This document shows, one piece after another, positions 9,631 to 17,722 of a DNA stretch of 64,000 nucleotides. Numbering within the stretch: the stretch's first letter is position 1; every line of letters begins with the position of its first letter. The notes beneath the pieces were generated by a model. The model did not search any database and was not told where the DNA came from. It worked only from the letters and a program-made list of their open reading frames with translations. Origin of the DNA: Arthrobacter sp. NEB 688 (GTDB taxonomy: Bacteria; Actinomycetota; Actinomycetes; Actinomycetales; Dermatophilaceae); assembly GCF_013201035.1 (NCBI RefSeq), contig NZ_CP053707.1, forward strand, positions 62,001-126,000, given 5' to 3'. The translations under genes and the position numbers were made by a program.

Positions 9631-9641
9631 TGGTCGGACCA
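9631..9641. promoter_or_regulatory. LldR-type operator O1
   Basis: TGGTCGGACCA, a palindrome 40 bases upstream of the proposed regulator start. Its centre is 15 bp from operator O2, so dimers would bind side by side. Confidence 0.75.
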
Positions 9642-9645
9642 ATAA

Positions 9646-9656
9646 TGGTCAGACCA
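9646..9656. promoter_or_regulatory. LldR-type operator O2
   Basis: TGGTCAGACCA, directly abutting the TTGACA -35 hexamer of the permease promoter. Binding here would block RNA polymerase. Confidence 0.8.
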
Positions 9657-9686
9657 TTGACACGACGTCGCAGCCGCCCCTACCGT
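9657..9686 (+). promoter_or_regulatory. Promoter of the lactate permease/lut operon
   Basis: A perfect -35 TTGACA (9657-9662), 18-base spacer and -10 TACCGT (9681-9686). It is flanked by operators O2 and O3, the classic arrangement for repression by occlusion. Confidence 0.65.
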
Positions 9687-9701
9687 CGACGCATCCCCGA
9701 A

Positions 9702-9712
9702 TGGTCTGACCA
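9702..9712. promoter_or_regulatory. LldR-type operator O3
   Basis: TGGTCTGACCA lies just downstream of the expected transcription start. With O1 and O2 about 50-70 bases upstream, DNA looping or roadblock repression is possible. Confidence 0.75.
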
Positions 9713-13764: not shown

Positions 13765-14414
13765 GCGCGCGCGACGAGATCCTCGCCCGGGTCCGCGGCG
13801 CGACGGCCGACGTGACGACCACCCCGGCCGACCGCGCCCCGACCACCGTCGTCGAGGAGACGTCGCCCGGCCGGGTGACCACCCTCGACCTCTTCGTCGA
13901 GAACGTCGCCGACTACCGGGCTCAGGTCGTCCGGGTCATGCCCTCCGGGGTGGCCGACGCCGTGGCGGATGCGCTGCGCGAGCACGGTTGCGGCACAGCG
14001 GTGCTGCCGACCGGTCTCGACCCGGCGTGGCGCGACGCGGTGGGCGGCGCCGTGCGCGTGGTCGCCGAGGCCGACGTCACCGTCGACGCCGAGCTCGACG
14101 CGGTCGACGCGGTCGTCACGGCGGCGGCGGTCGGCATCGCCACGACGGGCACGGTCGTCCTCGACCACGGCCCGGACCAGGGGCGGCGCGCCCTCACGCT
14201 CGTCCCCGACCTCCACGTCTGCGTCGTGCGCTCCGGGCAGGTCGTCCACGACGTGCCCGAGGCGGTGGGGCGGCTGCGCCCCGGTGCGGAGCACGCCCGG
14301 CCGCTCACGTGGGTCAGCGGGCCGAGCGCCACGAGTGACATCGAGCTCGAGCGGGTCGAGGGCGTCCACGGACCGCGTACCCTCGTCGTCGTGCTCGTCG
14401 ACGAGGAGGTCTGA
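13761..14414 (+). CDS. lutC: Lactate utilization protein C (LUD domain)
   Basis: The 217-residue LUD-domain protein begins SARDEILARVRGA and shows the family core: DAVVTAAAVGIATTGTVVLD, HGPDQGRRALTLVPDLHVCVV and a C-terminal GPSATSDIELERVEGVHGPRTLVVVLVDE. It is the third subunit of the lactate-oxidising complex. The ATG overlaps the lutB stop, and the stop is four bases before the ppsR ATG, so transcription very likely continues into the PEP synthase pair. Confidence 0.94.
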   Translation: MSARDEILARVRGATADVTTTPADRAPTTVVEETSPGRVTTLDLFVENVADYRAQVVRVMPSGVADAVADALREHGCGTAVLPTGLDPAWRDAVGGAVRVVAEADVTVDAELDAVDAVVTAAAVGIATTGTVVLDHGPDQGRRALTLVPDLHVCVVRSGQVVHDVPEAVGRLRPGAEHARPLTWVSGPSATSDIELERVEGVHGPRTLVVVLVDEEV

Positions 14415-14418
14415 CCCG

Positions 14419-15258
14419 ATGGCTGCTGCCGACGACGAACAGGCTTCCCCCACACCGGTGTTCTTCCTCGCCGGAGGGACGGGGATCTCGGCCGAGACGC
14501 TCGGCAACCTCATCATCAACCAGTTCCCGACCCTCGACTTCGTGCGCCGGAAGATTCCCTTCATCACGACCGTGGAGCAGGCGCAGCGCGTCGTCGAGGA
14601 GCTCGACTCCGCGGTCACCGAGTCGACGACCCCCATCGTCTTCTCGAGCGTCGCCGACGCCGAGCTGCGCGACGTCCTGCGCAGCACCCGGTGCGCCTTC
14701 ATCGACCTCTTCGGCAGCCACCTCGACATCGTCGAGCGCGTCCTCCACGTCAACGCGAGCCCCAAGGTGCCGGCGCTGCACGGGCTCGGCGACATCCACC
14801 GGTACGAGCGGCGGATGAAGGCCATCGACTTCTCGCTCGAGCACGACGACGGCGCGAGCCTGCGCAACCTCCAGCAGGCCGAGCTGGTGCTCGTCGCCCC
14901 CTCGCGCTGCGGCAAGACGCCGACCTCGCTCTACCTCGCCCTCCAGCACGGCGTGAAGGTGGCCAACTACCCGCTCGTCGACGAGGACCTGCGGGCCAGC
15001 GAGCTGCCCGAGGCCGTCCGTCCCTACCTCGACCGGTGCGTGGCGCTGACCTCCACGCCGGCCCGCCTGAGCCAGGTGCGCAGCGAGCGACGGCCCGACT
15101 CGCCCTACGCCTCGCTCCAGCAGTGCTCCTGGGAGCTCAAGCGCGCCGAGGAGCTCTACCGGGCGCACCGCCTGCCGGTCATCAACTCCTCGGGGATGTC
15201 GGTCGAGGAGATGGCCGCCGTGATCATGCACACGCGCCAGCTCAAGGGCTCCGGCTGA
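14419..15258 (+). CDS. ppsR: PEP synthase regulatory protein (ADP-dependent kinase/phosphorylase, DUF299)
   Basis: The 279-residue protein has the family's P-loop-like [19 protein letters not shown] near residue 163, followed by the conserved [12 protein letters not shown] and a C-terminal [12 protein letters not shown]. Members switch PEP synthase (or pyruvate phosphate dikinase) off and on by ADP-dependent phosphorylation and Pi-dependent dephosphorylation of a threonine beside the catalytic histidine. GAGGAGG precedes the ATG within the end of lutC. Immediate proximity to ppsA favours PEP synthase as target rather than PPDK. Its start is four bases from lutC, linking gluconeogenesis to lactate use. 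Confidence 0.92.
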
Positions 15259-15352
15259 CCCGGGCTGCCATCCTGTCCCTCGCCGACACCCCGGCGACCC
15301 CGCACCACCACCGCACGACCCGCGCGCCCCGTCCCCCGGAAGGACCCCCGCC

Positions 15353-17722
15353 ATGACCACCACCGTCCGCTGGTTCCGCGAGCTCGGCCTCGACGACGTC
15401 GAGTCCGTGGGCGGCAAGAACGCCTCGCTCGGCGAGATGGTCCAGCACCTCTCGGCCGCCGGCGTCGCCGTCCCCGACGGGTTCGCCACGACCGCGGAGG
15501 CCTACCGGCGCTTCCTCGGCGAGACCGGGCTCGCCGAGCGCATCTCCGGCCTGCTCGCCGACCTCGACGTCGACGACACCCGGCGCCTGGCCGAGGTCGG
15601 CCACGAGATCCGCGAGGCCGTCGAGGCGCAACCGTTCCCCGAGGACCTCGACCGCGACATCCGCGCGGCCTACGAGCGCCTGGCCGGCGAGGCCGGTGAC
15701 GAGGCGAGCTTCGCCGTCCGCTCCAGCGCCACCGCCGAGGACCTCCCGGACGCGTCGTTCGCCGGCCAGCAGGAGACCTTCCTCAACGTCCGCGGCATCG
15801 ACAACGTCCTGCACGCCATCCGCCTCGTCTTCGCCTCGCTCTACAACGACCGCGCGATCGCCTACCGGGTGCACAGCGACTTCGACCACGACGTCGTCGC
15901 CCTCTCGGCGGGCGTCCAGCGGATGGTCCGCTCCGACATCGGCGCCTCGGGCGTCCTGTTCACCATCGACACCGAGTCGGGCTTCGAGGACGCCGTGTTC
16001 ATCACGAGCGCCTACGGCCTCGGCGAGGGCGTCGTCCAGGGCGCGGTCAACCCCGACGAGTTCTACGTCCACAAGCCCGCGCTGCGCGCCGACCGCCCCG
16101 CGGTCCTCAAGCGCGGCGTCGGCGCCAAGGCCACGAAGATGGTCTACACGCAGGACGCGACCGTCGGCCGCACGACCGAGTTCGTCCCCGTCGACGTCGC
16201 CGAGCAGCGCCGCCTCAGCCTGACCGACGACGAGGTCACCGAGCTCGCGCGCACCGCCCTGCGCATCGAGGAGCACTACGGCCGCCCGATGGACATCGAG
16301 TGGGGCCGCGACGGGGTCGACGGGAAGCTCTACGTCCTCCAGGCGCGCCCCGAGACGGTCAAGTCACGCGCGGCCGGCGGTGTGCAGCAGCGCTTCCGGC
16401 TCGAGGAGCGCGGCCCGGTCGTCGTCGAGGGCCGCGCGATCGGCCAGAAGATCGGCGCCGGCGCGGTGCGCGTCCTCACCGACATCGGGGCGATGCACGA
16501 CTTCCAGCCCGGCGAGGTCCTCGTCGCCGACATGACCGACCCCGACTGGGAGCCGATCATGAAGCGCGCCAGCGCCATCGTCACCAACCGCGGCGGGCGC
16601 ACCTGCCACGCCGCGATCATCGCCCGCGAGCTCGGCATCCCCGCGGTCGTCGGCACCGGCACCGCCACCCACGAGCTCGCCGACGGCCGCGAGGTCACCG
16701 TCTCGTGCGCCGAGGGCGACACCGGCTTCGTCTACGACGGCCTGCGGGAGTTCACCGTCTCCGAGACGACGCTCGACGAGATGCCCGAGATCCCGACGCG
16801 GATCATGATGAACGTCGGCACCCCCGAGCAGGCCTTCGAGTTCTCGCGCCTCCCCCACCGGGGCATCGGCCTGGCCCGCACCGAGTTCATCGTCAACCGG
16901 CAGATCGGCATCCACCCGCGCGCGCTGCTCGAGCTCGACGACCAGGAGCCGCGCATCAAGGCGGAGATCGAGGAGCGCATCGCCGCCTACGCCGGCCCGC
17001 GCGAGTACTTCGTCCGGCGCCTCGCCGAGGGCGTCGCGATGCTCGCGGCCGCCTTCGCGCCCGAGCCGGTCATCGTGCGCCTGTCGGACTTCAAGTCCAA
17101 CGAGTACGCCGGGCTGCTCGGCGGCGCGCGCTACGAGCCGCACGAGGAGAACCCGATGCTCGGGTACCGCGGCGCGGCGCGCTACCTCTCGGCCGACTTC
17201 GCCGAGTGCTTCGCGATGGAGTGCGAGGCGCTGCGCCACGTCCGCGACGAGATGGGTCTGACCAACGTCAAGATCATGATCCCGTTCGTGCGCACCGTCG
17301 CCGAGGTGGAGGGCGTCATCGAGCTCCTGGCGTCGCACGGCCTCGAGCGCGGGAAGAACGACCTCCAGGTCGTCATGATGTGCGAGCTGCCGTCGAACGC
17401 GGTCAACGCCGACGCCTTCCTCGACCACGTCGACGGCTTCTCGATCGGGTCCAACGACCTGACCCAGCTGACCCTCGGCGTCGACCGCGACTCCTCCCTC
17501 GTCGCCGGCTCCTTCGACGAGCGCGACCCGGCGGTCAAGGCCCTGCTCTCGATGGCCATCCGCGCCTGCCGCGAGCGCGGCAAGTACGTCGGCATCTGCG
17601 GCCAGGGCCCCTCGGACCACCCGGACCTCGCCGAGTGGCTCGTCGACGAGGGCATCGAGTCGATGTCGCTCAACCCCGACACCGTCGTCGACACCTGGCT
17701 GCGCCTGGCCAAGCGCGGCTGA
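15353..17722 (+). CDS. ppsA: Phosphoenolpyruvate synthase (pyruvate, water dikinase)
   Basis: At 789 residues it has the standard length. The N-terminal ATP-grasp PPDK_N domain shows [16 protein letters not shown] and [21 protein letters not shown]. The swivelling phosphohistidine domain contains [16 protein letters not shown] with the catalytic His at about residue 419. The C-terminal PEP/pyruvate barrel shows [17 protein letters not shown] and GICGQGPSD. The threonine next to the histidine (RTCH), the target of the regulatory protein, is present. It makes PEP from pyruvate and ATP, the first gluconeogenic step after lactate oxidation. It is 94 bases behind ppsR on the same strand. Confidence 0.96.

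Follow-up and report, generated by a model that had tools for sequence, protein, structure and literature searches.

Can a bacterium hold the import of lactate, its oxidation to pyruvate and the conversion of pyruvate to phosphoenolpyruvate (PEP) under a single promoter? This question is raised by a locus of Arthrobacter sp. NEB 688 (Dermatophilaceae; assembly GCF_013201035.1), where genes for a lactate permease (lctP), the lactate oxidation proteins LutABC, a regulator of PEP synthase (ppsR) and PEP synthase itself (ppsA) follow each other on one strand. The host genome is Phycicoccus-like and consists of a single contig of 4,077,299 bases (NZ_CP053707.1). The window analysed here is a stretch of 64,000 nucleotides, positions 62,001 to 126,000 of the forward strand, and all coordinates refer to the window unless stated otherwise. 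We consider it probable that lctP-lutABC-ppsR-ppsA is one lactate-inducible operon, in which PpsR would act as a brake on PpsA. Numbers preceded by L and G are our labels for loci and genomes, respectively.

Gene content and junctions

All six genes lie on the plus strand. The run opens with lctP (9753..11531), encoding a permease of 592 amino acids that matches Pfam Lactate_perm (444.5 bits) and NCBIfam TIGR00795 (427.9 bits against a cut-off of 341). The longest reading frame begins at an ATG at 9630; this start was set aside and corrected to 9753, which has a Shine-Dalgarno sequence (GGAGG) ahead of the start codon and lies downstream of the operators described below. The next three genes have the make-up and the A-B-C order of LutABC. 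They are lutA (11528..12298), a cysteine-rich CCG protein (Pfam CCG, 114.5 bits); lutB (12295..13764), a LUD and 4Fe-4S protein (Pfam LUD_dom, Fer4_8 and LutB_C) that passes TIGR00273 narrowly (446.3 bits against 444.8); and lutC (13761..14414), a LUD-domain protein (Pfam LUD_dom, 84 bits) with no NCBIfam match. Then follow ppsR (14419..15258), assigned to the PEP synthase regulatory kinases/pyrophosphorylases (Pfam Kinase-PPPase, 230 bits; PRK05339, 245.9 bits against 225), and ppsA (15353..17722), assigned to PEP synthase (TIGR01418, 1180 bits against 740).

A preliminary description of this DNA had reported GTGA/ATGA overlaps from lctP through lutC, with ppsR four bases further on and ppsA next, and the gene coordinates agree with it at every junction. 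Neighbouring genes share 4 bp each, read as GTGA at lctP/lutA and as ATGA at lutA/lutB and lutB/lutC. The gap from the lutC stop to the ppsR start is 4 bp, and a Shine-Dalgarno sequence (AGGAGG) is contained within the last lutC codons.

Among named records, PpsR is closest to the proteins of Phycicoccus jejuensis (97%) and of Phycicoccus sp. HDW14 (96%), and both of these organisms carry the same locus. The Kinase-PPPase domain of PpsR has a P-loop stretch, which lines up with the P-loop of the PPDK regulatory protein (PDRP) 5d0n. PpsA has the three domains of a PEP synthase in order and aligns end to end with the PEP synthase 2ols; the GGRTCHAAI stretch is kept and a stretch of 11 residues is identical. 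We take T417 and H419 of this PpsA, the T and H of GGRTCH, to be the regulatory threonine and the catalytic histidine. In PEP synthase, the regulatory threonine is described as close to the catalytic histidine (PMC2817694). PpsA is the sole PPDK_N protein found in the host genome, so that no PPDK is present.

Regulator, operators and promoter

Divergently from lctP lies the gene of an LldR-like regulator of the FadR subfamily (8848..9591, minus strand), with a GntR and an FCD domain. Among solved structures the regulator is best matched by 2di3, the LldR of Corynebacterium glutamicum (PMC4494728). The gene is probably leaderless and starts at a GTG at 9591, because a CATSCT box is seen by eye 6-7 nt ahead of this start codon in several aligned relatives; an ATG at 9570 is a possible alternative.

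Three exact copies of the palindromic site TGGTCNGACCA are found between the two genes: operator 1 (TGGTCGGACCA, 9631..9641), operator 2 (TGGTCAGACCA, 9646..9656) and operator 3 (TGGTCTGACCA, 9702..9712). Operator 2 touches a -35 box, TTGACA (9657..9662, plus strand), which is followed after an 18-bp spacer by a -10 box, TACCGT (9681..9686, plus strand), and operator 3 is located just 3' of the predicted transcription start at about 9693. The site fits TKGT-N3-ACMA, the consensus of the FadR subfamily (PMC4494728), and a GntR-FCD protein of this subfamily with such a site ahead of its target has the architecture of LldR. Operators had been proposed at the front of the run only, and the window indeed holds no exact site other than those at 9631, 9646 and 9702, two further matches carrying one mismatch. 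The probability of three exact sites occurring within 110 positions by chance is about 7e-14. In the whole genome there are two additional exact sites, at genome positions 652232 and 1684488. These were dismissed as extra targets since they lie within or at the start of unrelated genes (lists of open reading frames read by eye) and about 2.8 sites are expected by chance from the base composition of the window.

Eleven front regions were aligned (window, L021, L022, L028, L031, L036, L083, L094, L154, L171 and L172). Operator 3 is exact in all eleven; operator 2 is exact in six and has one mismatch in five; operator 1 is absent from this place in some relatives. The -35 box reads TTGACA or TTGACG and the -10 box TANNNT in 11/11 loci, with a spacing of 17-18 bp where counted, and the promoter always lies between operators 2 and 3. 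As the operators flank the promoter, a bound repressor would cover the edge of the -35 box and the first transcribed bases. A rule-based promoter prediction at 9618-9646 was set aside in favour of the TTGACA/TACCGT pair conserved in these loci.

A scan from lutC to ppsA for an operator right before ppsR returned only AGGTCTGACCC, with two mismatches, at the lutC-ppsR junction. It was not counted as an operator because it overlaps the lutC stop codon and the Shine-Dalgarno sequence. The 600 bp upstream of ppsR were also scanned in 113 of 116 loci without linked lut genes, some species being represented twice and some loci not belonging to PEP synthase; 0 exact operators were found, and a single one-mismatch site was present in 6.

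Conservation in the class and in the Dermatophilaceae

In an even sample of 394 genomes of the class, the PpsR family is present in 20, and lutC was seen within the approximately 1.5 kb examined upstream of ppsR in two of these, the host genome itself and G281. The family of the host was represented by 186 genomes, of which 102 have the PpsR family, 164 a LutB-family match (85 over the cut-off) and 70 a PEP synthase at E <= 1e-100. In 67 of these 70, ppsR lies directly ahead of ppsA, which associates PpsR with PEP synthase and not with PPDK. Of the three exceptions, G461 is a contig fragment, G537 has a divergent PEP synthase and G548 gives a partial match. The pairing was counted over 100 PF03618 rows, leaving out broken copies of G508 and G519 and extra pieces in G409 and treating two pieces of G534 as one interval. 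No PEP synthase follows in 33 of the 100 rows, most of which come from one genus (g176) and one of which is a remnant (G424). In the four of these that were examined, from other genera of the family (L163-L166), the PpsR-family gene is followed 58-145 bp on by a gene of 886-888 amino acids with 26-30% local identity to PpsA, which probably encodes PPDK.

In 16 of the 67 loci the lut genes precede ppsR on its own strand, lutC ending no more than 4.4 kb away; these include L123, whose contig begins within lutB. Among the 51 others, at least one (L090) is unscorable as its contig begins 35 bp before ppsR. In named records, which overlap with these 16, lutC is upstream of ppsR in 13 of 67, from Phycicoccus, Nostocoides, Knoellia, Humibacillus, a Janibacter and two metagenome-assembled genomes. 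Pairs without lut have an aminotransferase-like gene (by eye) near or directly before ppsR in 21 loci, and further up many of them have genes for EF-Tu, EF-G and a ribosomal protein. A fixed lut-ppsR-ppsA arrangement, as first suggested, is thus too strong a description: the fixed unit is ppsR-ppsA, to which lut is attached in part of the family, and one relative of the same genus (L136) is without lut. The order as such is kept across several genera and recurs in two other lineages, so the earlier concern that relatives might not conserve it does not apply. As a separate observation, Knoellia sp. Soil729 (L128/L032) has lutC and ppsR separated by a gene that, judged by eye, is acyl-CoA-ligase-like.

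One transcription unit or two

The strongest alternative to the single operon is that two units adjoin each other, the lactate operon ending at lutC and ppsR-ppsA being transcribed from a promoter inside lutC, with an adjacency that is mostly historical. Since no lut genes are seen before ppsR in 51 of the 67 family loci, ppsR-ppsA must be expressible alone and needs its own promoter there. Such a box is present in L136, which has lost lut and carries TATGGT 6 nt ahead of the ppsR start, and the window lutC contains TACCCT, chance -10 boxes being common. In 4 of the 16 linked loci lutC and ppsR are further apart (26-38 bp in L126, 0.8 kb in L124, 1.6 kb in L128 and 4.3 kb in L094), in some cases with an intervening gene.

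All these points weigh against the operon, and several others have to be added. The gap between ppsR and ppsA is 94 bp, and the two Deinococcus modules described below have gaps of 90-92 bp (lutC-ppsA) and of 67 and 195 bp (ppsA-ppsR). The regulator scores far below the cut-off of the LldR equivalog PRK10421, which is of the E. coli type (93.6 against 311 bits), and higher on the NanR model (105.3 bits, also far under its cut-off). Six lut-linked loci (L023, L029, L034, L035, L104 and L151) have no GntR gene nearby and no exact operator in the stretch examined; L032 has one about 1 kb upstream. Nor is the operator universal: three loci of the family whose gntR-lctP-lutABC carries a LutB of another clade (L181, L183 and L184) lack an exact site. 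PpsR passes the broader model PRK05339 but stays below the narrow equivalog NF049928 (307.3 against 350 bits). Finally, the host genome has two matches to PEPCK of the GTP type (G000:C1:479307-480392 and 2655711-2656814; 565 and 409 bits), making PpsA a second route to PEP and not the sole one.

Against two units stands first the junction itself. With overlaps counted and the best-placed ATG taken, lutC and ppsR are at most 12 nt apart in 12 of the 16 linked loci, and in the window the gap is 4 bp with the ppsR Shine-Dalgarno sequence lying inside lutC. The sole rule-based promoter match in 9500-17850 is the one at the front, and similar modules exist in other lineages. No terminator-like site was found in the same interval by a scan that requires a T run, rare at this G+C content. 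In the window and in L021, the stem-loops at the junctions and downstream of ppsA are no more stable than those of shuffled sequences, and so carry no information on where the operon ends; in L022, ppsA is followed by a strong stem-loop (z -4.5). Taken together, we hold two separate units to be unlikely and co-transcription from the front promoter, as predicted from the DNA, to be the better account.

History of the module in the family

The PpsA tree comprises 79 rows, namely the window, 73 G loci and 5 named Micrococcaceae. Of its 17 lut-linked rows, 16 share a supported 35-row clade and the remaining one (L155) falls among the Micrococcaceae. For LutB the tree comprises 37 rows: 17 were taken from pps loci, without L123 since its lutB is cut, and 20 from chosen regions among the matches listed. 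Here, the 15 lut-linked LutBs of the Dermatophilaceae form one clade (100/99) with only three others, and the other 18 family LutBs included fall in other clades. Two of the three, L171 and L172, belong to a gntR-lctP-lutABC cluster with the operator placed elsewhere in the genome. The third, L154 (G424), is a decayed module: its lut genes are whole, but ppsR is cut down to roughly its first 50 codons and ppsA is missing. The opposite loss is suggested by L136, which is sister to L130 in the PpsA tree and has the same upstream neighbours as L130, with no lutABC between these and ppsR. Because the 15 LutBs share one clade with so few others, the simplest reading of the trees is one joining in the ancestor of these genera, with later loss of either half.

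Recurrence in Micrococcaceae and Deinococcus

Of 149 Micrococcaceae genomes, 27 have the PpsR family, and lutC is upstream of ppsR in two of 28 loci (L013/L155 and L203/L229); 11 of these loci have ppsA upstream of ppsR, where lut genes further up would escape view. Among 45 named Micrococcaceae records none has lutC upstream of ppsR, one of them (L073) beginning 182 bp before ppsR. In 13 of these (L039, L040, L041, L044, L046, L053, L056, L058, L059, L065, L068, L084 and L087) ppsA comes before ppsR, and in the others ppsR is first; G689 carries both gene orders (L229 and L230). L155 has a GntR gene (39%), an inverted lctP, three exact operators and a lutC-ppsR gap of 9 nt. L229 is looser: it holds a single exact operator, its inverted lctP is matched weakly (28%), and the matches to lutC and ppsR are more than 400 bp apart. 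Both have a LutB that is a paralogue other than that of the window, across a supported split in a LutB tree of 28 rows.

Plasmid P2 of Deinococcus gobiensis and pDEGR-2 of D. grandis carry GntR, lctP, lutA, lutB, lutC, ppsA and ppsR in one run, in this order. They resemble the window also in having a palindrome that touches a TTGACT box. They differ in phylum, in having ppsA before ppsR and in the palindrome itself, which is TTGTTCTGAACAA. Of the 8 lutB-bearing Deinococcus plasmids in the collection, the six others have no pps genes alongside: on five of them lutABC follows rhamnose genes, and on one gntR-lctP-lutABC stands by itself. In the former (L221-L225), lutABC directly follows genes for rhamnose isomerase, a bifunctional aldolase/dehydrogenase and a kinase, as if it served to oxidise lactate derived from rhamnose. 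A plasmid of D. psychrotolerans (L220) has divergent ppsA and ppsR, no lut genes, and inositol catabolism genes after ppsR.

Trees were made from chosen subsets (28 LutB and 35 PpsA rows). The Deinococcus LutB and PpsA sequences are not nested within the actinobacterial module trees. A first test of a single clade of module LutBs included rows with a lost link; its rejection was stronger but less fair. As the earlier tests also punish such rows, a test with 23 rows was run without L154 and L171, using 8 of the 11 plasmid and Micrococcaceae rows (L225, L227 and L228 left out). It rejects a single clade with p 7e-5 for the two actinobacterial lineages and 1e-28 for all three. A single clade of module PpsAs is also rejected, in a test that punishes rows with a lost link.

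From these comparisons, the modules of Micrococcaceae and Deinococcus were probably assembled separately from that of the Dermatophilaceae. The competing explanation is an ancient module, common to Actinomycetota and Deinococcota and lost in most lineages. The LutB and PpsA trees broadly track the hosts, as they would under vertical descent, and the clade tests, while rejecting a single module clade, do not reject descent with loss. The swapped gene order in Deinococcus weighs weakly against descent, because both orders occur within the Micrococcaceae alone. Three observations nevertheless make an ancient module distinctly improbable: the Micrococcaceae LutB is a different paralogue from the Dermatophilaceae one, lctP is inverted in L155 and weakly matched in L229, and pps genes are attached on only 2 of the 8 LutB-bearing Deinococcus plasmids.

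Proposed function

Under the single-operon reading, the FadR-subfamily repressor would bind the two palindromes that flank the sole conserved promoter and keep it shut until a signal, probably lactate, releases it. LctP would import lactate, LutABC would oxidise it to pyruvate, and PEP synthase would convert pyruvate and ATP to PEP for gluconeogenesis, with the translation start of ppsR coupled to the end of lutC. If it works like its E. coli counterpart, PpsR may phosphorylate and inactivate PpsA at high ADP and reverse this with phosphate (Pi), and pyruvate may protect PpsA from inactivation, so that lactate-derived pyruvate would both feed PpsA and hold it active. Joining ppsR-ppsA to lutABC would make pyruvate supply and its conversion to PEP answer one signal. 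The idea that the permease and LutABC serve another 2-hydroxy acid (glycolate and D-lactate are examples) and that PpsA was joined on for gluconeogenesis in general can draw on the match of LctP to the glycolate permease model GlcA (398.6 bits, below the cut-off of 1121) and on a regulator whose effector is predicted, and is very improbable given that LctP and, narrowly, LutB exceed the cut-offs of TIGR00795 and TIGR00273 and that the best solved-structure match of the regulator is LldR.

The functional reading in the preliminary description, namely uptake, oxidation and PEP synthesis in order, with operators only at the front and PpsR as a post-translational switch, fits the family assignments and the comparative data; the fixed order does not. 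Gluconeogenesis from lactate in actinobacteria is usually drawn via PEPCK. We tentatively suggest, at rather less than even odds, that a lactate-to-PEP unit has been built at least three times (Dermatophilaceae, Micrococcaceae and Deinococcus) by placing PEP synthase with its own regulator behind lutABC, and that lactate-derived pyruvate would serve both as substrate of PpsA and as the signal restraining PpsR, a feed-forward gate into gluconeogenesis by-passing oxaloacetate and PEPCK.

Relation to known systems

The run of genes is real, well built and partly conserved, and every part of it is known; the points of interest are the combination and its occurrence in three lineages. In E. coli the ppsR and ppsA genes are divergent. 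Compared with that PSRP-PEPS pair, the P-loop and GGRTCHAAI stretches are kept here, and both genes are on the same strand, regulator first, behind a lactate operon. The E. coli DUF299 protein inactivates PEP synthase with ADP and reactivates it with Pi, pyruvate counters the inactivation, regulation is by ADP, ATP and pyruvate, and growth on pyruvate or lactate is named as a relevant situation (Burnell 2010, PMC2817694). The same paper already notes that duf299 genes lie near pps and ppdk genes, and a DUF299 protein has been considered likely to control PEP synthase where PPDK is absent (PMC8100219).

With the lutABC (lldEFG) operon the locus shares the LutA, LutB and LutC domains and their order, a permease in front and a GntR-type regulator; the difference is that the run here continues into ppsR-ppsA. 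The word 'synthase' is absent from the LUD-domain paper (PMC3924224) by word search. The regulator shares subfamily and site type (PMC4494728) with the C. glutamicum LldR, which is its closest solved structure, while being distant from the curated LldR model of the E. coli type. No description of a lut-ppsR-ppsA or lut-ppsA-ppsR operon was recognised among the hits of full-text searches, at most 20 being listed for each; these hits were judged mostly by titles and the openings of abstracts, and the searches leave subscription journals largely, and supplementary tables entirely, outside.

A repressor-controlled operon from lactate to PEP with a co-encoded post-translational brake predicts a second route to PEP and a simple logic for burning lactate or building from it. 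Should its presence in these lineages be confirmed to stem from separate assembly, it would be a natural replicate pointing to selection on the combination. The compact parts, an operator-flanked promoter and a PpsR-PpsA pair, may be of use for making PEP-derived products from lactate.

Neighbouring genes

About 80-120 bp past ppsA and on the same strand lies a gene for a GAF-ANTAR protein (17805-18587, plus strand); a similar gene follows ppsA in L021 and not in L022. On the other side, the lactate regulator is adjoined by genes for a GAF-PAS histidine kinase and a response regulator (6291-8719, minus strand), which overlap by 4 bp.

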